DNA from: Acidimicrobiales bacterium | GTDB taxonomy: Bacteria > Actinomycetota > Acidimicrobiia > Acidimicrobiales > Palsa-688 | DNA: 64,000 nucleotides | Direction of reading: 5' to 3' | NCBI GenBank assembly: GCA_036378675.1 | Contig: DASUWA010000013.1 | Coordinates: forward strand, 1 to 64,000 | Part shown: positions 24,279-40,734 of the stretch, piece by piece | How positions within the stretch are numbered: position 1 is the stretch's first letter | How the letters are laid out: the number at the start of each line of letters is the position of its first letter | Notes under the pieces: model-generated | The model's input: only the letters and a program-made list of their open reading frames with translations | The model's database searches: none | Told to the model about the DNA's origin: nothing | Position numbers and translations under genes: made by a program

Positions 24279-25208
24279 TTACGGCTCGGGTATGTCTGCT
24301 GCGGAAGACGCTACCTCGAGGGCTCCGCGCAGGAACGCCAGCCTGGCTGGGTCGGCGATGACATGCACCTTGTCGACGCGCTTGTTATCCGGTGAAAGCG
24401 TGAGGATTAGCACGCCTGCGAGTCGGCGGTTCCGGAAACCAAGCACGGCGGGACCCGCGGCGCTGGGTAGTGACACCAGCGTGGCACTCGCCCAGTACTT
24501 GACCAGGTTCAAGGCGACCTGTTCGGGTCCGTGGGTAACCCCGGGCGTCGCGACTCCGACTCCTAGGTCGACCTCGCCGGAGGCATCCGGCGCGAGAACT
24601 CCTACCAGGGACGCGATGTCACCCCTGGCACATGCCTCGATGAACCGCTCGGTCACCTCCCGGTGCTCCTCGGCGGTGATGTCGAAACGTCGTCCGGTGC
24701 TCTCGGATTCGATTCGCTGGCGGGCCCTGCGGGCGAGTTGACGGCAGGTCGCTACCGGGCGCCCAACCGTGTTGGCGATGTCCTCGAAGCGCATCTGGAA
24801 GACGTCGTGGAGCACCAACACGACGCGCTCCGATGGACTCAATCGCTGCATCATCACCAAGAGCGCCAGCCGGACGCTGTCGTCGAGTGTTACCCGATCG
24901 GCTGGATCCAACTCCGGCCGGGTCAGGGGAGCAGCGGGCTCCCGTCCGGTGAAGTCGTAGACGAGTTCGCGCTTAGTCCGCGCGGACCTGATCCGGTCGA
25001 GGCACAGGCGGCTGGTCACGACCGTTAACCAACCTCGAGCATCCAACACTTCCCCGGGCTTGGTTTTTGCCAGCCTCGAGAAGGCTTCCTGAACTACATC
25101 CTCGGCGGCTCCGATGTCGCCGAGCATCCTGAAAGCCACGTCGACGATGTGCGCTCGGTGATCTGTCCAAGCGGCCGAGAATTCGGAATTGGCTGACGGG
25201 TCGGACAT
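24279..25208 (-). CDS. ECF sigma factor with SnoaL-like C-terminal extension (ECF41/SigJ type, 309 aa)
   Basis: Region 2 is at about 10-75 (FRMLGDIGAAEDVVQEAFSR, WLTVVTSRLCLDRIRSAR) and region 4 at about 115-165 (LSPSERVVLVLHDVF, FEDIANTVGRPVATCRQLAR). About 130 more residues form a SnoaL/NTF2-like domain (VTERFIEACARGDIASLVG), which in ECF41 factors replaces a separate anti-sigma and controls activity. The linker and the Asp-Gly-rich motif typical of ECF41 are altered here (GREPAAP, DASGEVDLGVG), so it may be a sister group. The ATG at 25208 was chosen; the region upstream holds its promoter. Divergent from a redox/efflux operon. Confidence 0.9.
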   Translation of the reverse strand: MSDPSANSEFSAAWTDHRAHIVDVAFRMLGDIGAAEDVVQEAFSRLAKTKPGEVLDARGWLTVVTSRLCLDRIRSARTKRELVYDFTGREPAAPLTRPELDPADRVTLDDSVRLALLVMMQRLSPSERVVLVLHDVFQMRFEDIANTVGRPVATCRQLARRARQRIESESTGRRFDITAEEHREVTERFIEACARGDIASLVGVLAPDASGEVDLGVGVATPGVTHGPEQVALNLVKYWASATLVSLPSAAGPAVLGFRNRRLAGVLILTLSPDNKRVDKVHVIADPARLAFLRGALEVASSAADIPEP

Positions 25209-25241: not shown

Positions 25242-25268
25242 GACGAGGTTGAGGCTCGGAAAGTGACA
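25242..25268 (-). promoter_or_regulatory. Candidate ECF-type promoter of the sigma gene (autoregulation)
   Basis: On the minus strand TGTCAC (25268-25263) is followed after 17 bases by CGTC (25245-25242), about 30 bases before the sigma ATG. The pattern resembles the TGTCACA / CGTC motif reported for ECF41 promoters. The same arrangement with identical spacing precedes the divergent operon. Confidence 0.6.
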
Positions 25269-25277
25269 GGGCCGCGG

Positions 25278-25304
25278 TGTCACGTTTTCTCATGGGCGAG
25301 CGTC
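25278..25304 (+). promoter_or_regulatory. Candidate ECF-type promoter of the VOC-MFS operon
   Basis: TGTCAC (25278-25283), 17 bases, then CGTC (25301-25304), some 70 bases before the first gene of the operon. Identical elements and spacing to the promoter facing the other way, as expected if the neighbouring sigma factor controls both. A direct repeat CCGGATCGA occurs twice between this promoter and the gene. Confidence 0.62.
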
Positions 25305-25377: not shown

Positions 25378-25812
25378 ATGAGTGACACTCGAGATGATGG
25401 GGGGGTCGGGCAGCTCACCATGAGATTGGCGCAAGCACGGATAGTCACCGACGACGTGGAGGGCGCTGCATCGTTTTATGCCTCCGTGCTCGGGGTGCGT
25501 GTGTGCCTGAACGAGTACTACGTCGAGGTGCCGGCCGGAGACGCAACCCTCGGCTTTTCCAAGGCGCGCTTCACCGAGTGCGGAGTTACCGCCGTTCCGC
25601 AGGTGATCCTCGACTTCGAAGTCGATGACGTCGATGCCGAGTTCGCCCGCCTCGACGCGCTGGAGGTCGACTGGGTTCAGGTCCCCACCACCCAGCCGTG
25701 GGGGAACCGTTCGATGACCTTCCGGGCCCCGGAAGGCCTCCTGGTGAACGTCTTCTCCCGCCCGATGGACTCAACCGACGCCTCCAAAGGAGCAAACCAT
25801 GGCGACGATTGA
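25378..25812 (+). CDS. VOC (glyoxalase/bleomycin-resistance) family protein (144 aa)
   Basis: A single vicinal-oxygen-chelate domain: RIVTDDVEGAASFYASVLGV at the first beta-alpha motif, VDDVDAEFARL in the second half, and RSMTFRAPEGLLVNVF at the end. VOC proteins use a metal site for isomerisation, ring cleavage or drug binding; the role here is unknown. A good ribosome site (TTAGGAGGTGG) precedes the ATG. The 3' end overlaps the MFS gene by 14 bases. First gene of the operon behind the ECF-type promoter. Confidence 0.85.
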   Translation: MSDTRDDGGVGQLTMRLAQARIVTDDVEGAASFYASVLGVRVCLNEYYVEVPAGDATLGFSKARFTECGVTAVPQVILDFEVDDVDAEFARLDALEVDWVQVPTTQPWGNRSMTFRAPEGLLVNVFSRPMDSTDASKGANHGDD

Positions 25813-27337
25813 GGCAGGGCACGTAGGCGCATCCCCGAGGCAGCAAAGGGGTGGGCTGATCCTCCTCCTGCTGTGCGGCGCGCAATTCCTGGTGGTCCTC
25901 GACTCGACGATCGTGAACGTCGCGTTACCGTCGATCCAACGGTCGTTGCACTTCTCGCAACAGAACCTGCAGTGGGTCGCCTCGGGCTATGCGCTGACCT
26001 TCGCCGGTTTTCTCCTGCTGGGTGGAAGATCGGCCGATCTGCTCGGACGCCGGCGGACCTTCTTCACTGGCGTTTCGATTTTCCTGCTCGCCTCGATGGT
26101 GGGTGGGCTCTCGTCCAACTCGAGCATGCTGGTCGCTGCACGCGTCGTGCAGGGCATGGGCGGGGCCCTCATGTCCCCGTCCGCGCTGTCATTGCTCAAC
26201 ACCACCTTCCAGGGCCCCCAACGTGCTCGGGCAATCGGGATCTACGGGGCCATGGGCGGAGCAGGTGGCGCTGCAGGGGTGCTCTTCGGCGGGATCCTTA
26301 CCAGCGGCCTGGGATGGCGCGCGGTGCTGTTCGTCAACGTCCCGTTCGGATTGGCGATTGTGTTCGCCGCCTCCCGCCTGATCCCGAATGACAACCGCGG
26401 AGCCAATGCAGCGGACTTCGATCTTCCGGGGGCCTTCTTTGTAACCGGGGCCCTTCTGCTGCTCGTGTATGCGCTGACCCAGGCCCCGTCCGTGGGTTGG
26501 GGATCGGGTCGGACCATCTCCGAGCTCCTTGGGGCGTCGGTGCTCCTCGCGTTGTTCGTCGCCAACGAGGCTCGCTCGCGCCGCCCTCTGCTCCCCCTTG
26601 GGACGTTCCGGCTGAATGGAGTGGCCGTCGCCAATACGGTCGCCGTTCTGGTGTTCTGCGGTATGACGCCGCTCTTCTTCTTCCTCACGCTTTACATGCA
26701 GCAGGTGCTCGGCTACTCGGCCCTGAGGACAGGCCTTGCCTTCCTCCCCCTCACAGTGGGCGTCATCGGGGTCACCAGGAACGCTTCGAAGGTCATCGCA
26801 CGGTACGGGCCAAGGCCGACGCTGGCGGCGGGGCCGCTGATCTTCACCGGCGGCCTCTTCTGGCTAAGCAAGATTCCGGCGAATGGCCGGTATCTGACGG
26901 ACATCCTCCCCGGGCTGCTGATCGTCTCAGTCGGAGCGGGGGTCAGTCTGGTTTCGGTGATCACGGCCGCCACCAGAGGCGTCCCGTCACAGAACGCCGG
27001 AGTGGCAGCAGGGCTGGTCAACACCATGCAACGGGTGGGAACGGCTGTCGGCCTGGCAGTGCTAACCGACATCGCGACAAGCCGCACCGCGACGTTGCTC
27101 TCCGTGCATACCCGGCATCTCGCAGCCCTGACCGGGGGTTTCGACCGGGCCATCCTCATCGCTTCCGCGCTAGTAGCAGCCGGTGGGGTCCTGGCTGCAA
27201 TCACGTGGCGACCGCAACTTCAACTCACCCCCAATCGACCAGAAAGGAATAGACAGAAAAATGAAGACACTCGTGATCGGACGTCTCACCGGCAAGGAAA
27301 TAGCGCCTCATATCCCGGCGGAAGGGAAAACCGTTGA
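25799..27337 (+). CDS. MFS drug:H+ antiporter, DHA2 (EmrB/QacA) family (512 aa)
   Basis: About 14 hydrophobic helices with the DHA2 signatures: VVLDSTIVNVALPSI in helix 1, GGRSADLLGRRR in the first loop and ARVVQGMGGALMSPSALSLL in helix 4. It should export small toxic compounds or an operon product. The last roughly 26 codons are read in a different frame across the beginning of the next gene (77-base overlap) and have no family character, so the original stop has probably been lost or frameshifted. Confidence 0.9.
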   Translation: MATIEAGHVGASPRQQRGGLILLLLCGAQFLVVLDSTIVNVALPSIQRSLHFSQQNLQWVASGYALTFAGFLLLGGRSADLLGRRRTFFTGVSIFLLASMVGGLSSNSSMLVAARVVQGMGGALMSPSALSLLNTTFQGPQRARAIGIYGAMGGAGGAAGVLFGGILTSGLGWRAVLFVNVPFGLAIVFAASRLIPNDNRGANAADFDLPGAFFVTGALLLLVYALTQAPSVGWGSGRTISELLGASVLLALFVANEARSRRPLLPLGTFRLNGVAVANTVAVLVFCGMTPLFFFLTLYMQQVLGYSALRTGLAFLPLTVGVIGVTRNASKVIARYGPRPTLAAGPLIFTGGLFWLSKIPANGRYLTDILPGLLIVSVGAGVSLVSVITAATRGVPSQNAGVAAGLVNTMQRVGTAVGLAVLTDIATSRTATLLSVHTRHLAALTGGFDRAILIASALVAAGGVLAAITWRPQLQLTPNRPERNRQKNEDTRDRTSHRQGNSASYPGGRENR

Positions 27338-27512
27338 GCAGCTCCGCAACCAGGGAGTAATCCGGGACGTGTTTCTGAAGGCCGATCACACCGGGCCGAT
27401 CATCATCGTCAACGACGCCAACGCCGAACAGGCAGCGGACCACCTGAAGGACCTTCCTTTCGTCGAGCACGACCTCGTCACCTTCGAGTACGTCGAGCTC
27501 ACGGACCTCTAA
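27261..27512 (+). CDS. Small ferredoxin-fold-like protein, YciI/muconolactone-isomerase-like (83 aa)
   Basis: Starts at the ATG 27261, after a purine-rich stretch (AGAAAGGAAT). The beta-alpha-beta pattern MKTLVIGRLTGKEI ... IIIVNDANAEQAADHLKDLP ... VTFEYVELTDL is that of the dimeric alpha/beta-barrel family containing YciI and muconolactone isomerase-like proteins. It may handle a reactive aromatic or quinone intermediate together with the neighbouring FMN reductase and questin-oxidase-like protein. Specific activity unknown. Confidence 0.7.
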   Translation: MKTLVIGRLTGKEIAPHIPAEGKTVEQLRNQGVIRDVFLKADHTGPIIIVNDANAEQAADHLKDLPFVEHDLVTFEYVELTDL

Positions 27513-27553: not shown

Positions 27554-28195
27554 ATGGAACGACTGAAGCTCAACGTCATCATCGGAACGGTGAGACCCGG
27601 CAGAGCCGCCGACCCGGTCGCCAGGTGGGTGGCCGACCGGGCCTCAGGACACGGAGGCTTTGACGCCGAGGTACTCGACCTCCGTGACTGGCCCCTTCCC
27701 CTATTCGCGGAGGGCCCCGAGACGATCGGAGACTTCGCCGACCCGACGTACTCTGATCCGATCGTGAAGGAATGGAACAAGAAGCAGAAGGAAGCCGACG
27801 CCTTCGTCTTCATCACCGCCGAGTACAACCACAGCATTCCCGGGGTCTTGAAGAACGCAATCGACAACGTCTTCGTCAGCTTCGCCTTCCGTAACAAGCC
27901 CGCTGCCTTCGTCGGCTACAGTGGCGGCATCGCCGCCGGGGTACGCGCAGTCGAGCACCTCGCGCACGTCGCGATCGAGGCCGAGATGGTTCCTCTTCGC
28001 AACACGGTCCTGCTCCCGCAGGTGCACAACGTATTCGACGTTGAAGGCCAGCCGACCAACCCAGCGACCGAACGCAGCATCGCGATAACTCTCGATGACC
28101 TGGAGTGGTGGGGACGCCTTCTCGCTGACGCCCGAGCTGCAGGACAGCTTCCGCCGGCCCAGGCACGCCAGATCGTTAGCGCCAAGGCCGGATAG
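27554..28195 (+). CDS. NADPH-dependent FMN reductase (213 aa)
   Basis: Flavodoxin-like fold of the NADPH_FMN_red family: the phosphate-binding start LNVIIGTVRPGRAADPVARW and the flavin loop AEYNHSIPGVLKNAIDNV (about 96-113). It reduces FMN, quinones or azo compounds using NAD(P)H and may protect against electrophiles or supply reduced flavin to the downstream oxygenase-like protein. It lies 41 bases after the preceding gene and 3 bases before the next, so it is part of the same operon. Confidence 0.88.
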   Translation: MERLKLNVIIGTVRPGRAADPVARWVADRASGHGGFDAEVLDLRDWPLPLFAEGPETIGDFADPTYSDPIVKEWNKKQKEADAFVFITAEYNHSIPGVLKNAIDNVFVSFAFRNKPAAFVGYSGGIAAGVRAVEHLAHVAIEAEMVPLRNTVLLPQVHNVFDVEGQPTNPATERSIAITLDDLEWWGRLLADARAAGQLPPAQARQIVSAKAG

Positions 28196-28198
28196 AGC

Positions 28199-29107
28199 AT
28201 GACTGTTCTCGACGAAGCCTACGAACGCCTCAGCAGCGCTTGGCTGGAGAACGAGCGGGGCTTCGTCAACCACGGTCCCATGGCCTGCGAAGCGTTGTCC
28301 GTCATGGGGCTCGATACTGAAGTGGTGGCATGGGCGGATCGCAGCGCCCAGCCCCACAGGGCGGGTACCAACCGCGCTGTGGGCAGCGGTCGCATCACCG
28401 ATTGGGGGCAATCGCTCGGAAATTTCGCCATGCTCGAAGAGTGGGTCGGTCACTTCGATCGCTCCATCAGAGAGTCCGGCTGGCGGGACACAGTGGCCGT
28501 TTGGGTACCACGACTGATGCCCTCCATGAGCACCAAGCTCTTCCACGCGATGATTCGCACGGCCCACGCCACCCGCTCGATCGATACCGTTGAGACCGAG
28601 CCCCGCCGGCGAGAACTGGCCTTCTCGCTTGGATACTGGGCGGCGAGATTCGAACCCCGGCCCAGTGCTTCGTCTCCGGGCGTTCCCGGACACGGCGCCC
28701 GCCCAACCCAAGAGATCACCGGCGAAGACGTTCAGCGCCAACTAGCACGCATCGCGACAGGCGCGGCACGCCGCTTCGTCTCACGGCCCGACATATTCAC
28801 CCTCCACGGCGTGACTGGCGCGATGGCAGTTCATCTGCTGGCACCACACGTCCCAGTTGCCGCCGCTCGCGCCAGCCTGGACCACCTCGAGGTCGCCCAT
28901 CTGTCGCTGTTCGGCGACGCGGTGCCAACGGTCACCCGGGAGGCCAGAGGTGTCGACAGGGCCACCCTCGCCGCCAGGGCGGCCGATACCGGAGACGTGC
29001 ACGCGGTCAAGCTGACCGAAGCCGCTTTTCGGGCCCTCGATGCCACCGGAGATCCGATCTTTGTGACCGCCGCAGAGATCGCCGCCGGGGCCGATGGCCC
29101 GGGATAG
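28199..29107 (+). CDS. Questin oxidase-like protein (DUF4243, 302 aa)
   Basis: Resembles the questin-oxidase-like family: an early NHGPMACEAL motif, GSGRITDWGQSLGNFAMLEEW, a central FHAMIRTAHATRS His-containing helix, and a late TLHGVTGAMAVHLL segment. Fungal questin oxidase opens an anthraquinone ring; bacterial members are uncharacterised. As last gene of the ECF-controlled operon, behind a flavin reductase, it may act on quinones or polyketides. The gene stops 8 bases before the convergent acetyltransferase. Confidence 0.75.
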   Translation: MTVLDEAYERLSSAWLENERGFVNHGPMACEALSVMGLDTEVVAWADRSAQPHRAGTNRAVGSGRITDWGQSLGNFAMLEEWVGHFDRSIRESGWRDTVAVWVPRLMPSMSTKLFHAMIRTAHATRSIDTVETEPRRRELAFSLGYWAARFEPRPSASSPGVPGHGARPTQEITGEDVQRQLARIATGAARRFVSRPDIFTLHGVTGAMAVHLLAPHVPVAAARASLDHLEVAHLSLFGDAVPTVTREARGVDRATLAARAADTGDVHAVKLTEAAFRALDATGDPIFVTAAEIAAGADGPG

Positions 29108-30618: not shown

Positions 30619-30855
30619 TCATTTCGGTCTCCAATCATCGAAGACCCTGAGCAGCTGGTCTCGGGCCTGAGCGGAGAGGTCCTCTGGTTGCAGCTGACCG
30701 GCCTGTCTCACGATCTCCCTGATCTGGTCCACGTAGATCACACAACCCGGGCATAGAGCGAGGTGCTCCTCGAACCGCTGCCTGGTGTCCGCGTCCATAG
30801 CGTCCTCCAGGTACTCGGTGACTAGTTCGACGAATTGCTCGCATGTCATGCTCAT
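30619..30855 (-). CDS. Zinc-finger anti-sigma factor (zf-HC2, 78 aa)
   Basis: A small anti-sigma factor of the zinc-binding type: a Cys at position 5 (MSMTCEQFVELVTEYLED) and the H-x3-C-x2-C motif HLALCPGC near 31-38, followed by a helical tail. There is no membrane segment, so it is a soluble, possibly redox-sensitive inhibitor. Its ATG overlaps the stop of the upstream ECF sigma gene by four bases (ATGA), fixing a stoichiometric sigma/anti-sigma pair. Confidence 0.88.
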   Translation of the reverse strand: MSMTCEQFVELVTEYLEDAMDADTRQRFEEHLALCPGCVIYVDQIREIVRQAGQLQPEDLSAQARDQLLRVFDDWRPK

Positions 30856-31511
30856 GATTCTCTCCCTGCGAAGTATGCCTCAAGCTCCCGCCGAACGAAC
30901 GCTCGCGCCCGGTGCAGCAAAACGCGCTGATTCCCGAGACTTATCGAAAGCGTGTCGGCAACCTCCTGCCCGTCATACCCCTGGAGGTCGTGCAACTCCA
31001 CGACGATTCGTTGGCGCTCTGGAAGTCGAGTGACTGCCGCCTGTATGACCGCTCGGACTTCAGCGTCGATGGCGGCGTCCTCGGGGGACCGCCACGGCGA
31101 AGGGAAGCGTCTCCAACCTCCGGGCTCTCGTTCCCCTGCCTGCTGGAACCGGACCGGATCGACCGTCGGACCCGACTCCGCCATCGGTACTGGTAACAAC
31201 CGACTCTGCCGGATCCCTTGCCGGCGTGCGATGTTCACGACGATCCCACCGACCCAGCTCCTCAGGCTTGAGCGACCCTCGAAGCGGTCAAGACCCCGAA
31301 GAGCCGCGATCCATGCTTCCTGAATCACGTCCTCCGCCGCGTGGTGATCGGGCACATGTGCCCGGGCGATTCGCAGCATTGCCGGTGACCAGGAGTCGAC
31401 CAGCTCGGCGAACAGGTGCAGATCCCCACCTTTCAGAGCAGCGACCAGATCCATATCCCTCGCAGGACCCGCGCTTTCGTCGAGCGTGTCCGTCGAGACT
31501 CCCCGCGTCAC
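30852..31511 (-). CDS. ECF RNA polymerase sigma factor, copy 1 (219 aa)
   Basis: Region 2: LFAELVDSWSPAMLRIAR, HAAEDVIQEAWIAALRGLD and SLRSWVGGIVVNIARR. Region 4: LPERQRIVVELHDLQGYDGQ and LSISLGNQRVLLHRARAFVR. Between them is a long insert rich in Pro and Trp (GGWRRFPSPWRSPED) shared with the second copy at 32061-32711. The start is uncertain: a GTG at 31511 fits the paralogue's length, while an ATG at 31454 is the first Met. It is coupled to the zf-HC2 anti-sigma gene. Confidence 0.86.
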   Translation of the reverse strand: MTRGVSTDTLDESAGPARDMDLVAALKGGDLHLFAELVDSWSPAMLRIARAHVPDHHAAEDVIQEAWIAALRGLDRFEGRSSLRSWVGGIVVNIARRQGIRQSRLLPVPMAESGPTVDPVRFQQAGEREPGGWRRFPSPWRSPEDAAIDAEVRAVIQAAVTRLPERQRIVVELHDLQGYDGQEVADTLSISLGNQRVLLHRARAFVRRELEAYFAGRES

Positions 31512-31789
31512 GGACGATGGCGATACAGGAACCACAACTATTAGTGCAGTCGGAACAGCGCTCGTTACGCGGAAAGGTGAACACTCGGCGGCCTCGGGTG
31601 GCCGTAACGGACCCTTTGGAGAAGGGCACTTCAAGTCACATTTGCCAGCTCGCAATCGTCCTTCATTGCAAAGTTCGTGATTCAACAGAGAGGCGGATCG
31701 AAATGATCGCTGTTGAGGCCCATCGTTGTCCCGGTCCGGAATCGTCGCCAGCCACGACGCTAGATCCAACCCTGCGACGCCAGCGTTCG

Positions 31790-32060: not shown

Positions 32061-32711
32061 TCAGTTCAACCTCCCGGCCAAGTAATTCTCGAGCTCGTGC
32101 CGGACGCCCGCCCGGGCTCGGTGCAGCAGGATCCTCTCGTTCCCCGGGCTGAGGTCGAGGATGTCTGCTACTTCCTGGCCGTCGTAGCCGTGCAGGTCGC
32201 GCAGTTCGATTACCGCGCGCTGGCGCTCGGGCAACTTAGCAAGAGCCGCATAGATCTGGGTGAGCATCTCGTTGTTCAGCGCGCGGTCCTCGGGGCTCGG
32301 CCAAGGTGTAGGGAACTGCCTCCATCCCCCCGGATACTTCTCGCCCGATCCCTGGAACCGTTCGGGATCCACCGTGGGTCCCATGGTCAGCGAAGCGTCC
32401 GGGACGACGCGATGATCACGCGTACCGTGGCGGCGAGCGAGGTTGAAGACGATGCCCATCACCCAAGTTCGGAGTCTGGCCCTGCCCTCGAAGCCGGCCA
32501 GACCTCGCAGGGCCGCCATCCAGGCCTCCTGGACGACGTCCTCGGCGGCCTGCCGATTCGATACGTGTACCCGAGCGACGCGCAGCATTGCGGGAGACCA
32601 CGCATCGACCAGCTCGGCGAACAGTCGCTGATCACCGCTCATCAGCCCGCGGACCAGGTCCGCGTCCGTCCCGGCCACGTTTTCGCCTCCGGAGATGTCC
32701 GCACCGCTCAT
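32061..32711 (-). CDS. ECF RNA polymerase sigma factor, copy 2 (216 aa)
   Basis: Closely related to the ECF factor at 30852-31511: LFAELVDAWSPAMLRVAR, AAEDVVQEAWMAALRGL, RLRTWVMGIVFNLARRHG, the same inter-domain insert with GGWRQFPTPWPSPED, and LPERQRAVIELRDLHGYDGQ in region 4. The ATG at 32711 is preceded by a strong AGGAGGT site. No anti-sigma follows it; the next genes downstream are the PAP2 remnant and the first ECF copy. It may share the zf-HC2 anti-sigma or be controlled otherwise. Confidence 0.87.
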   Translation of the reverse strand: MSGADISGGENVAGTDADLVRGLMSGDQRLFAELVDAWSPAMLRVARVHVSNRQAAEDVVQEAWMAALRGLAGFEGRARLRTWVMGIVFNLARRHGTRDHRVVPDASLTMGPTVDPERFQGSGEKYPGGWRQFPTPWPSPEDRALNNEMLTQIYAALAKLPERQRAVIELRDLHGYDGQEVADILDLSPGNERILLHRARAGVRHELENYLAGRLN

Positions 32712-32792
32712 CTTGCCGGTACCTCCTACGTCCACTGTCCTCGCCGAGATTGGAGAAACCGCGCCGTCCACGGTGGAGAAGTCAGATACTTC

Positions 32793-33008
32793 TTACCAAA
32801 CCGCGACTTCGATCATGGATGTATGGACGAGCGCGCCCGAGATTTCGTGACAGCGCCCGAAGATGCTGCGAAGCGGGCTGAAAGTGCCGTCCACCTCCCA
32901 GGGGCCTTGGCCGGCCTGGGCATCCTGGACCGTGATGTCCCCGTCGACATGGCCGGGCTGGGTGGTGTCGAACTTCACCGTGAGGGGACCGTTGCCATCG
33001 TTCCCCAT
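32793..33008 (-). CDS. Uncertain small ORF or gene fragment (71 aa)
   Basis: The reading frame has protein-like composition (GPLTVKFDTTQPGHVDGDI, then GQGPWEVDGTF), resembling a beta-rich domain of a secreted or lipid-binding protein. The frame stays open upstream of the ATG (GQGTTYWEYM), but no start with a ribosome site or signal peptide was found, so it may be the surviving C-terminal piece of a decayed gene. The rest of the 32712-33186 gap shows nothing recognisable apart from the promoter and ribosome site of the ECF gene. Confidence 0.25.
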   Translation of the reverse strand: MGNDGNGPLTVKFDTTQPGHVDGDITVQDAQAGQGPWEVDGTFSPLRSIFGRCHEISGALVHTSMIEVAVW

Positions 33009-33186: not shown

Positions 33187-33618
33187 TTACGGCGCAATCG
33201 AAGCGGGGCGGTGCTCGAGCCAGTCCAGTTGGCGTGCGCCGGCGTGCTGTGCGGCGATCACAAAGCACACCCGGTCAGGACCTCTCCCCGGGAAAGGTTT
33301 GCTCGTGTACTTGGTTGCGATCTGGTCCATGTAGCGGCAATCGTGGTCCGGTCTGATCTCGATGATCGTTCCCTGCACCGCAGCCATTCGATAGGGGTTC
33401 TCGAGATCGACGACCGAAAGCGCCACACGAGGATTGGACCTCATATCCTTTGCTTTCCAGGTGAAATCGGAGGTGCACACCAGGATGCGTTCACCCTCCA
33501 AGCCGACCCACACGACATGGTTGCGCGGAGATCCATCTGCCCGAATCGTGGAGAGATGCGCGTAGTTCGGCGCAGCGAACAGCTCACGGACATCCTCAGG
33601 CAGTGGAATCTCGAACAT
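33187..33618 (-). CDS. PPOX-class, probably F420-dependent, oxidoreductase (143 aa)
   Basis: Split-barrel flavin/F420 fold of the pyridoxamine-5'-phosphate-oxidase family: AHLSTIRADGSPRNHVVWVG at the N-terminus, CTSDFTWKAKDMRSNPRVAL, and VQGTIIEI in the third strand group. The Ser-Pro and Lys-Asn-Pro-like positions match the actinobacterial PPOX class F420-dependent enzymes. It may reduce or bind small electron-poor compounds. It is followed upstream by a second F420-type gene 18 bases away on the same strand, so the two probably form an operon. Confidence 0.82.
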   Translation of the reverse strand: MFEIPLPEDVRELFAAPNYAHLSTIRADGSPRNHVVWVGLEGERILVCTSDFTWKAKDMRSNPRVALSVVDLENPYRMAAVQGTIIEIRPDHDCRYMDQIATKYTSKPFPGRGPDRVCFVIAAQHAGARQLDWLEHRPASIAP

Positions 33619-33636: not shown

Positions 33637-34104
33637 TCAGGCAGCTTGGTCAACGTCGAGGCGGAGGAACTGAGTAATTCCGATAGCTTTCATAATCGCC
33701 TTCTCGGTGCGCTTGAACGCCTTGCCAGCTTGAGAGAGAGCGACGGACCGATCGACGATTAGCGGACGAACTGCGTGATAGTCCTCTCCGCGCCAACGGA
33801 TGGTGCACTCGCCGGCCGCGAGGACGTTCCTGCACCAGTCAGAGTCGGGTCCGAAGGTCAGGCTGACCCAGAAGTGTTGTCCGTTCAGGCGAGCCGTGGC
33901 GGGTGTGACGTACTCGTGGCCGGAGCGCCGGCCTACGTGGTAGATCCTGGCCGCCATATTGAAATGCCGGCGTCCGGCCAGTTTGCGGATGGACGGATTG
34001 AGCACCTTCGTCATCGGTCTCATGGCGAAGCGAACGAACTTTGAAGGTCGTCGGCGGTTCGGCTCGGTTTGATCGTCGCTGACAGCGTTCGGGATCATCG
34101 TCAA
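33637..34104 (-). CDS. Deazaflavin (F420)-dependent nitroreductase, Ddn family (155 aa)
   Basis: Matches the Ddn/F420H2-dependent reductase family: RIYHVGRRSGHEYVTPATAR (F420 phosphate-contact region with the GRxSG pattern), FWVSLTFGPDSDWCRNVLAAG (the usual YG-xxxWxxNLxAxG block), and a C-terminal helix. Ddn-type enzymes reduce quinones and nitro-aromatics and protect against oxidative stress. An N-terminal basic, amphipathic segment may associate with membranes. Probably co-transcribed with the PPOX gene downstream. Confidence 0.86.
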   Translation of the reverse strand: MTMIPNAVSDDQTEPNRRRPSKFVRFAMRPMTKVLNPSIRKLAGRRHFNMAARIYHVGRRSGHEYVTPATARLNGQHFWVSLTFGPDSDWCRNVLAAGECTIRWRGEDYHAVRPLIVDRSVALSQAGKAFKRTEKAIMKAIGITQFLRLDVDQAA

Positions 34105-34196
34105 GTAGTCCTTTCGGGGTCAGGGTGATCGGTCACGTCCTATGGACGGCCGGGTTGTGGCGAGCGTGACAGCACAACGGCTGAAGAAGGGGATTG

Positions 34197-37966: not shown

Positions 37967-38725
37967 TCACCGGCCGGTTGGCCGCTCCACCGGGTGCCCG
38001 TCGACGTAGATGTCGACCTTCTCGTTGTAGAACGCCACCAGCCCGGCGATCGGTGCGACGGCTGTGTACGGGTAGTCGTAAACCCACGCAATGTCGTCCA
38101 CCGTCGTTCCGTCGATATCGGCGGACCAGTACTGGCTGGTCACTCCCTTATACGGGCATGCCGTTTCGGTGTCGCTCGGGACCAGGTAGTCGAACTCCAC
38201 GTCGGTCCGGTTGATGTAGTAGCGGGTCGGCAGGCCGGTCTCGAAGACCAAGACGGGTGAGAACGTCTCGGCGATGACCTCTCCGTTCAGTTCGATCCGG
38301 ACCGAGCGGGTGGATCGAAGGGCGTCGACCCGGACGTAGGGGTTGCGGGGATGGACGTGGACCTGCTCGTCCTCCTCGAACCAGGCATCGAGAGCGTCCC
38401 AGTTGAACCGGACCGTGTTGACGAGGCGTTCGTCCGCCGACTCGATGACGACCTTGGCAACTCGGTTGCGGTACTCGCCGCCGCTCTTCAAGCCATGCGT
38501 TTCGAGTGTTCCCCACGCGCTCTTTTGAGTATGACCTTCAGGCACGAGGAGATCCTGAAGGACATCGTCGATCGGAACGTAGTACTGCGGATACCTGCCG
38601 TGCTCCCATACGTACAAGGCCCGAGTCGTGTCGAAGACGACCAACCCGTCGAGTTGCCCGCGTATCCGCCGCGGAACTGGTTGGACCGAATCGGGGGGAG
38701 TAGCAAAGGACGGATGGTCAGCCAT
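37967..38725 (-). CDS. DUF427 domain protein, two repeats (252 aa)
   Basis: Two successive DUF427 barrels. The first has VVFDTTRALYVWEHGRYPQYYVPIDDV-type residues (about 28-55); the second (from about 145) has ELNGEVIAETFSPVLVFETG, PTRYYINRTDVEF, CPYKGVTSQYW and AWVYDYPYTAVAPIAGLVAF. The fold resembles the Mss4-like/beta-barrel group; function is unknown. The ATG overlaps the stop of the ABC permease gene by one base, so it belongs to the exporter operon. Confidence 0.85.
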   Translation of the reverse strand: MADHPSFATPPDSVQPVPRRIRGQLDGLVVFDTTRALYVWEHGRYPQYYVPIDDVLQDLLVPEGHTQKSAWGTLETHGLKSGGEYRNRVAKVVIESADERLVNTVRFNWDALDAWFEEDEQVHVHPRNPYVRVDALRSTRSVRIELNGEVIAETFSPVLVFETGLPTRYYINRTDVEFDYLVPSDTETACPYKGVTSQYWSADIDGTTVDDIAWVYDYPYTAVAPIAGLVAFYNEKVDIYVDGHPVERPTGR

Positions 38726-39594
38726 CACACCACCGCCGAGCGATTGAAGATCCGTACTGAGAGGAGAGTGAACACTCCCGCCCAGGCTACGAGCACGAGC
38801 ATGCTAAGGGTGGCTTCGAGGGTCGGATTGGTCATTCCCCAAATGTCGTGCAAGCCCACCGCGTGACGGTCGAGCAACCCGTACCTGAGGAGTGCCAGAG
38901 CGTGGGTGAGCGGGAGCGCTCGGGCGAAGCCGGCGAGGCCGACCGGAAGATCGGTGATCCGGAACAGCGATCCGGCGAGGAACCACGGGAGGATCGCCAC
39001 GACCGGCGTCAGCCCGACGTACTCCTCCTGGGAGGGTACCCGGTTCGCCAGGATCTCCGACAGGGAGTACATGAACACCGTGAACGCGATGACCGCGCCC
39101 GTGAACCACCCGATGCCGGCTGCGGTCTGGTCGAAGTGGCTTCCCCGTGCCCAGCCGGCGAGCATCAGCACTGCCACCTGCAGGATGCTCATCGCCGCGG
39201 CTACCGCGAGGTTCCCAGCGACGACGACGCCACGAGGTATCGGCGCGGCCAGCAGTTCCCTGCGAGCGCCGGAGCTTCGGTCAACGATGACCCCGATGCC
39301 GGCGAACGTGCAGGCGAGGGGAATCAACAGTCCGACGGTTCCGATGATCACGAACGTCCGGTAGTCCACGCCACCGCGACCGCTCGAAGGGATCATTCTG
39401 GCCAGCGCGGGCGCGAGGACGAGAGCGAAGAGAAGCGGGGTCGCCATGGGCGCCAGGATCTCCCTCGGGGTGTGAGCGGACAGCGACAAGCGTCGCCGTG
39501 CCAGCGTCGCCCACGCGCTGAAGACACTCGGCTTGGACGCCCATGTCCGCTCGGCCACCGTGCCAGCATCCAACTGTGAAGCGTAAGTAGTCAC
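38725..39594 (-). CDS. ABC-2 type transporter permease, DrrB-like (289 aa)
   Basis: A hydrophilic N-terminus of about 40 residues is followed by six helices typical of ABC-2 exporters, including TPLLFALVLAPALARMI, TFVIIGTVGLLIPLACTFAG, VVAGNLAVAAAMSILQVAVL and PVVAILPWFLAGSLF, with the family signature region ADLPVGLAGFARALPLTHAL-like (residues about 220-240). It works with the ATPase encoded 22 bases upstream as a drug or lipid exporter. The downstream DUF427 gene overlaps it. Confidence 0.87.
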   Translation of the reverse strand: MTTYASQLDAGTVAERTWASKPSVFSAWATLARRRLSLSAHTPREILAPMATPLLFALVLAPALARMIPSSGRGGVDYRTFVIIGTVGLLIPLACTFAGIGVIVDRSSGARRELLAAPIPRGVVVAGNLAVAAAMSILQVAVLMLAGWARGSHFDQTAAGIGWFTGAVIAFTVFMYSLSEILANRVPSQEEYVGLTPVVAILPWFLAGSLFRITDLPVGLAGFARALPLTHALALLRYGLLDRHAVGLHDIWGMTNPTLEATLSMLVLVAWAGVFTLLSVRIFNRSAVV

Positions 39595-39616: not shown

Positions 39617-40552
39617 TCAGGCAGCCAGACTCGAGCCGGTCAGCTGCAGGTACACGTCGTCGAGAGTCGGGCGGCGGCTGGTCATCGACTCGGTCTCGAT
39701 ATCGAGCCTGGACGCGATGTCCAGAACGGTCGCGGCCGGTGCCTCGAGCGGAATGGTGAGAGTTGACCCGACCGCGAAAGCCGTGGCGCCGGCGACGTTT
39801 GCCGAGCGGAGCTTGTCGAGGGCGACGCGAGCGTCACCGTTGACCCGGAGCTCGAGGATCTCGGTGCCGAACCTCTCCAGCAGGGCCCACGGAGCCCCCA
39901 GCGCGACTATGTCGCCGCTGTGGACGATTGCCACCCGGTCGCAGAGGCGGTCCGCCTCGTCGAGATAGTGAGTCGTCAGCACCGTCGCCATTCCCGTTCT
40001 GTTTCGCAAGCCGGCGATCAGATCGAGCAGCTCGTAACGGATCCGGGTGTCCAGGCCGACGGTCGGCTCGTCGAGAAAAAGGACACGGGGGTTTGACAAC
40101 AGCGCCCGGGCGATCTCTAGCCGCCGGCGCTGGCCGCCGCTGAAGCTCTCGACCGCTCGGCCCAACAACTCGGACAGGCCGAACGACTGAGCGAGCTCGG
40201 CCACTCGGCGTTCTGCCGCAGCCGGGGGGATCCCCCAGAGACGGGCGTGGAGCTGCAGGTTCCGTTTGCCGGTTAAAGCACGGTCCACGACCGCATCCTG
40301 GAACACGACGCTGCTAACCGAGCGTGCGTCCAGCGGCTGTGCCTGCACGTCGTAGCCGGCCAGCCGGGCTGTACCCGAAGAAGGCTTGATCGTCGTGGTC
40401 AGCATGCCGATGGTGGTGGACTTTCCCGCCCCGTTGGGACCGAGCAGCCCGAATACCTCTCCGGGTGCGACGGTGAAGCTGACCCCGCGCACCGCTTCGA
40501 CGCCACCGGGATAAGTCTTTTTCAAATCTTCGACCTCTACGGCCCAGTCCAC
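39617..40552 (-). CDS. ABC transporter ATP-binding protein, DrrA-like (311 aa)
   Basis: Walker A GPNGAGKST (about 44-52), signature SFSGGQRRRLEIARAL, Walker B RVLFLDEPTVGLD and the switch His in LTTHYLDEAD. The C-terminal regulatory domain (about 220-311) is of the DrrA type found with ABC-2 permeases. The GTG at 40552 was chosen because AAAGGA precedes it; the longer frame overlaps the presumed promoter. It is divergent from a two-component system that may control it. Confidence 0.9.
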   Translation of the reverse strand: MDWAVEVEDLKKTYPGGVEAVRGVSFTVAPGEVFGLLGPNGAGKSTTIGMLTTTIKPSSGTARLAGYDVQAQPLDARSVSSVVFQDAVVDRALTGKRNLQLHARLWGIPPAAAERRVAELAQSFGLSELLGRAVESFSGGQRRRLEIARALLSNPRVLFLDEPTVGLDTRIRYELLDLIAGLRNRTGMATVLTTHYLDEADRLCDRVAIVHSGDIVALGAPWALLERFGTEILELRVNGDARVALDKLRSANVAGATAFAVGSTLTIPLEAPAATVLDIASRLDIETESMTSRRPTLDDVYLQLTGSSLAA

Positions 40553-40630
40553 GTCATTTTCCTTTCGCTGGAGAGTGCTGATCTTCAAGGACGGAACGAT
40601 GCCCGAAAAGGTGACATCGGAGTGCCCGTG

Positions 40631-40681
40631 CAAAGTGCCGCAACGTGCCGCCGCGTTACGGTTTGTGACAAATCGCTAACG
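40631..40681. promoter_or_regulatory. Direct and inverted repeats between the ABC operon and the two-component system
   Basis: CAAAGTGCCG and CAACGTGCCG form a direct repeat with a 10-base period (40631-40650), typical of OmpR/PhoB-type binding. Next to it, CGTTACGGTTTGT and its imperfect mirror ACAAATCGCTAACG span 40654-40681. Located midway between divergent starts, these are candidate response-regulator sites. Confidence 0.4.
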
Positions 40682-40734
40682 TTTCGGCGGAACGGCTGGC
40701 GAAGCCCTCCGAATCCCGGGAAGATGGCCCGGTG

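Follow-up and report, generated by a model that had tools for sequence, protein, structure and literature searches.

ECF41-type divergent promoters beside a SigI-type sigma factor gene of an Acidimicrobiales bacterium, and their likely regulon

A 64,000-nucleotide stretch of DNA from an Acidimicrobiales bacterium (hereafter the window) carries two facing ECF41-type promoters between the gene of a SigI-type sigma factor and an operon of VOC, exporter and redox genes. From sequence comparison we consider it quite probable that the adjacent sigma factor reads both promoters, providing autoregulation and control of the VOC operon, that it also reads a promoter before an ABC exporter operon, and that its NTF2/SnoaL-like domain acts as a sensor.

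Results

The promoter pair

The sequence-only reading had described identical TGTCAC-N17-CGTC elements on both strands, resembling ECF41 promoters and linking an extended ECF factor to a five-gene redox operon. An exact pattern scan of the window confirmed both elements at the positions given in Table 1, TGTCACTTTCCGAGCCTCAACCTCGTC on the minus strand and TGTCACGTTTTCTCATGGGCGAGCGTC on the plus strand, with 9 bp between the facing -35 boxes. The description as identical holds for the 10 specified bases and the N17 spacing, whereas the letters of the spacers differ. The pair, with one element before the sigma gene and one before the target genes, also fits the published ECF41 promoter (i.e. TGTCACA, 16±1 bp, CGTC), a consensus derived from 285 sites in a study of promoters mapped in two species (Wecke, PMC3426412); counted after TGTCAC, this spacing equals N16 to N18 with N17 at its centre. 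The seventh -35 base of the pair is T and G, where the consensus has A. Five exact N17 matches were present in the window as compared to 0.30 expected, and the largest number in any of 100 dinucleotide shuffles was two. A submotif (i.e. TGTCAC-N-TT with CGTC), which was picked after inspecting relatives, had three matches in the window against 0.00 expected.

The -10 element on the minus strand lies ~35 bp upstream of the likely sigma start (ATG at 25208, with AGGAAGG upstream), and that on the plus strand precedes the VOC start codon (ATG at 25378) by ~73 bp. As the start of the sigma reading frame, the listed GTG at 25283 is unlikely because the longer frame would run through the promoter. 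The ECF41 survey lists 55 divergent ECF/COE loci, with the motif at the sigma gene in 36 and at the COE gene in 41, and classes FMN_red as an oxidoreductase family (PMC3426412), and the divergent promoter pair as such is therefore a known arrangement.

Table 1. Promoter elements and genes of the proposed regulon and of further candidate sites in the window
Position	Strand	Feature	Evidence
24279-25208	-	SigI-type ECF41 sigma factor: sigma2, sigma4, NTF2/SnoaL-like C-terminal domain	NCBIfam PRK09635, tree, predicted structure
25242-25268	-	ECF41-type promoter, sigma gene	-35 TGTCAC, N17, -10 CGTC; kept in orthologous loci
25278-25304	+	ECF41-type promoter, VOC operon	Exact match; kept in orthologous loci
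25378-25812	+	VOC, glyoxalase/dioxygenase superfamily	Pfam Glyoxalase 5e-11
25799-27337	+	DHA2-type MFS exporter	Pfam MFS_1 2e-52
27261-27512	+	83-aa protein, 'YciI-like' in the sequence-only reading, name unconfirmed	No Pfam or NCBIfam match
27554-28195	+	NADPH-dependent FMN reductase	Pfam FMN_red 8e-36
28199-29107	+	Questin-oxidase-like protein	Pfam PF14027 E 5e-6, just under cut-off
32826-32852	-	Weak candidate site before another ECF sigma gene (32061-32711)	Exact match
33187-33618	-	PNPOx-family protein, downstream of the F420-reductase-like gene	Pfam PNPOx_N 3e-12
33637-34104	-	F420H2-dependent quinone-reductase-like protein	Weak Pfam PF04075 match, E 9e-4, under cut-off
34145-34171	-	Candidate fourth promoter, without TT submotif	Exact match ~46 bp before likely ATG of next gene
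37967-38728	-	DUF427 protein; probably last gene of ABC operon	Pfam 2e-42; overlaps permease stop
38725-39594	-	ABC-2 permease	Pfam ABC2_membrane 2e-16
39617-40546	-	DrrA-like ABC ATPase	Pfam ABC_tran 1e-32
40590-40616	-	Candidate third promoter, TGTCAC-N-TT submotif, before ABC exporter operon	Exact match

The sigma factor

The proposal of an extended ECF factor was borne out, the 309-aa protein being of the ECF41/SigI type by NCBIfam equivalog, tree and predicted structure. The SigI equivalog PRK09635 matched with 340.4 bits (cut-off 317), and Pfam found Sigma70_r2 and Sigma70_r4_2 only, i.e. sigma2 and sigma4 without sigma3. The SnoaL_2 match to the C-terminus was under the Pfam cut-off (E 0.0098). 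In the structure prediction (mean pLDDT 82), residues ~175-296 form an NTF2/SnoaL-like domain, and Foldseek matched the model best to SigJ of M. tuberculosis (5xe7) and SigG1 (7qh5), the predicted fold and the SigJ match indicating the C-terminal extension of ECF41 factors. This domain also matched NTF2-like and ketosteroid-isomerase proteins (VIA-align 2); two relatives with stop codons were left out of the structure alignment. In the tree, the sigma factor grouped with 25 relatives in a clade of 26 that is separate from the classical ECF41 proteins (support 97/94), and the nearest rows were Mycobacteriaceae, in a tree from which M. tuberculosis SigI itself is absent. The neighbourhood is also that of an ECF41 gene, with an FMN_red gene in the divergent operon and no anti-sigma family among the scanned neighbours.

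Signature motifs of classical members were lacking. The WLPEP linker motif was absent from the window sigma factor and, in the alignment, from nearly all of its clade; the sigma2-sigma4 linker of the window protein reads VYDFTGREPAAP...DPADRVTLDD. DGGGK and NPDKL, which in our alignment mark the extension of classical members, were absent from this protein, where DASGE and DPARL are found, and from its clade. In classical ECF41 factors the C-terminal domain both restrains activity and is required for it; as the window sigma factor lacks all three motifs, this control may differ, and the built-in sensor of the SigI clade may thus work differently from that of classical members. The first branch of the clade (L140, sigma gene at 1571-2446 on the minus strand) retains linker letters of the YVGPWLPEP type, as an intermediate form between SigI and the classical ECF41 proteins.

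The VOC operon

Pfam supported the VOC, MFS and FMN reductase names of the sequence-only reading. The questin oxidase profile scored 26.8 bits against a cut-off of 27, and the name YciI found no backing in Pfam or NCBIfam. For the MFS exporter, the best NCBIfam match was the tetracenomycin exporter TcmA, below its cut-off. The MFS frame and the next gene share 77 bases (27261-27337), and the frame has an odd tail, possibly reflecting a frameshift near the 3' end of the MFS gene. No orthologous operon with all five genes turned up among the loci fetched. Of the five genes, only VOC could be matched to a gene of an orthologous target operon (56% identity to the VOC of the L133 divergent operon, 45% to that of L032); no counterpart was found in such operons for the MFS, FMN reductase and questin-oxidase-like genes. 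The L133 operon divergent from sigI begins with a carboxymuconolactone decarboxylase gene.

Genome-wide sites and the extent of the regulon

The strict prediction that the pair would be the only good sites in the genome failed, because the exact pattern occurs at 17 sites (reversed-pattern control, 4). Roughly half of these look like chance matches, falling within genes or having no gene in front of them, and three precede genes at other ECF41 loci. On contig C9 the site is before the gene upstream of an ECF41 sigma gene, on C43 before an amine-oxidase-like gene that has an ECF41 gene after it, and on C75 before a carboxymuconolactone-decarboxylase-like gene divergent from an ECF41 gene (identities read from sequence, not by profile search). 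As these three loci carry the same core sites, cross-talk is possible. Two more divergent exact N17 pairs, probably other ECF41 loci, were seen in the relative G521 (C111:10651-10771 and C142:22182-22320).

The submotif form, TGTCAC-N-TT...CGTC, was found at exactly three sites in the genome, all within the window, i.e. the pair and the site before the ABC exporter operon. A fourth match, C32:95192, with a looser submotif and a TGTC -10, was set aside as it lies inside a long reading frame. The third site is ~44 bp before the GTG start of the ATPase gene, which has GAAAGGA upstream. The ATPase is 63-66% identical to ATPases divergent from sigI in four relatives (L142, L144, L145 and L190) as compared to ~40% for other homologues among the loci, its permease is 56-59% identical to the partners in the same four, and a core or near-core motif precedes the ABC pair in each. 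The shared submotif and the position of the ABC pair divergent from sigI in these relatives are the best evidence for a second target operon, which would have been split off by rearrangement. The motif was not found upstream of the ABC operon of G521 (L189), and the link between ABC operon and sigI is therefore not universal. Between the window's ABC operon and a divergent OmpR-type regulator gene at 40732, TGTCACAA occurs at 40660-40675 without a CGTC partner.

The site before the F420-reductase-like gene appears to be a weaker candidate; this gene shares 45-47% identity with sigI-adjacent genes of L032 and L033 and is homologous to one in the L133 operon. Weaker still is the candidate at 32826-32852, which is ~115 bp from the likely ATG, lacks the submotif and has no supporting homology. 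The gene behind it (reading frame 32061-32771) and that at 30852-31619 are tandem, related ECF sigma genes on the minus strand, both without a C-terminal extension and sharing a 44-residue stretch of 68% identity.

A regulon confined to the divergent pair, with the sites at 40590, 34145 and 32826 arising by chance or belonging to another sigma factor, would agree with the single target of published ECF41 factors, with the chance-like half of the genomic sites and with relatives G549 and G031, in which no exact site outside the sigI pair has the submotif. However, the three extra matches in the window compare with 0.06 to 0.19 expected, a figure that is only suggestive for a window not chosen blind, and the 40590 site, which carries the submotif, lies before an operon kept next to sigI in four relatives. 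We regard the confined regulon as rather unlikely. The regulon of only these two promoters raised in the sequence-only reading is probably too narrow because of the 17 sites, including the one before this ABC operon, and the likely regulon comprises sigI, the VOC-MFS operon up to its questin-oxidase-like gene and the ABC exporter operon.

Conservation of the pair in the SigI clade

Loss of the motif from orthologous intergenic regions, which would have counted against the pair, was not seen. In 14 of the 26 clade loci, a facing element was present on each side (N17, with 9 or more of the 10 bases matching); the full pair was missing in the other 12, some of which are cut by contig ends. Many of the relatives are metagenome-derived or draft genomes, and some end near the locus. 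The sigma-side element of L034 was seen in one scan only, the start chosen in the other scan having cut it off.

The -35 hexamer was the same on both sides in 13 of the 14 pairs, with only L032 differing between sides. Three separate lineages have changed both boxes alike, the paired variants being CGTCAC in L133, TGTAAC in L134 and L136, and TGTCGC in L141. The matching of hexamers was significant in a shuffle test (p 6e-5; 8e-4 after dropping two close kin), in which dropping kin was the only treatment of relatedness and shared ancestry was thus partly controlled. Concerted change on both sides is difficult to account for other than by a single sigma factor that reads both promoters.

Reading of the promoters chiefly by the other ECF41 paralogues (C9, C43, C75) instead of the adjacent sigma factor appears improbable: the target genes of these paralogues do carry exact TGTCAC-N17-CGTC, but none of those sites has the TGTCAC-N-TT submotif, and it is the adjacent sigma gene with which the concerted -35 changes are associated. 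A further rival, in which the GTGACA-N9-TGTCAC inverted repeat (25263-25283) serves a dimeric transcription factor as its operator and does not represent two -35 boxes, was rejected as very unlikely. The repeat is a perfect 6-9-6, and no other with a gap of 7-11 bp occurs in the window (0.04 expected). However, the gap ranges from 0 to 36 bp among the loci, being 9 in five of the 14, while the spacing to CGTC is fixed at 17 on both sides; CGTC is conserved as well, and target genes at other loci are preceded by single copies that have it.

Discussion

The preferred reading is of an ECF41-type pair served by the adjacent SigI-type sigma factor. With core RNA polymerase, this factor would read both divergent promoters, the minus-strand promoter transcribing the sigma gene itself (i.e. 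positive autoregulation) and the plus-strand promoter driving the operon from VOC through MFS, the 83-aa protein and FMN reductase to the questin-oxidase-like gene. Activation of its own gene together with the operon would most likely form a positive feedback switch, and the site before the ABC exporter operon is most likely read by the same sigma factor. The sites with their conservation and concerted change, the protein families and the predicted fold are what the analysis establishes; promoter activity, autoregulation, sigma specificity, signal and physiological role are inferred.

The NTF2/SnoaL-fold C-terminal domain probably takes the place of an anti-sigma factor as a built-in sensor. 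To our knowledge, no inducing signal of ECF41 factors has been established. The two exporters have exporters of tetracenomycin and daunorubicin among their best-named relatives; together with the quinone/flavin reductases and the questin-oxidase-like protein, they suggest detoxification of an aromatic or quinone-like compound. A small compound of this kind would release the sensor domain and would itself be exported and chemically converted by the regulon; that the SnoaL-fold domain binds such a compound is hypothesized from gene content and fold. More tentatively, and with confidence short of even, a SigI-type ECF41 factor without signature motifs may be a one-component aromatic/quinone sensor that drives a dispersed regulon, against the one-target rule, of the sigma gene itself, the VOC/MFS/oxidoreductase operon, the ABC exporter operon and perhaps the F420-type reductase operon.

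The ECF41 systems of Bacillus licheniformis (ydfG) and Rhodobacter sphaeroides (RSP_0606) share the promoter core and spacing, the extended sigma factor and an adjacent oxidoreductase-type target (PMC3426412). Both have a single target and sigma factors with WLPEP and related motifs, whereas the window sigma factor lacks these motifs and its promoter also occurs before a second operon 15 kb away. RpoE9 of Sinorhizobium meliloti, another ECF41 factor, uses the same promoter class for a carboxymuconolactone decarboxylase gene (PMC6180224); unlike the window locus, this is its one target, upstream of the sigma gene and likely co-transcribed with it. SigI of M. tuberculosis (ECF41) is the NCBIfam equivalog matched by the window protein, and its reported direct target, katG, differs from the window targets (PMC8999054, PMC9480834). 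The closest solved structure, by sequence as well as by Foldseek, is that of M. tuberculosis SigJ, also ECF41. SigG1 of Streptomyces tsukubaensis likewise carries a SnoaL-like domain at its C-terminus but belongs to another ECF group, ECF56, and has lower identity to the window protein.

New here is the finding that the SigI clade keeps the ECF41 promoter while lacking the signature motifs. Also new are the concerted change of both -35 boxes across species, which provides natural evidence for one sigma factor reading both promoters, and a candidate second operon 15 kb away. Such an operon would break the picture of one sigma factor and one target for ECF41, and the gene content of the regulon yields a testable guess at the ECF41 signal.
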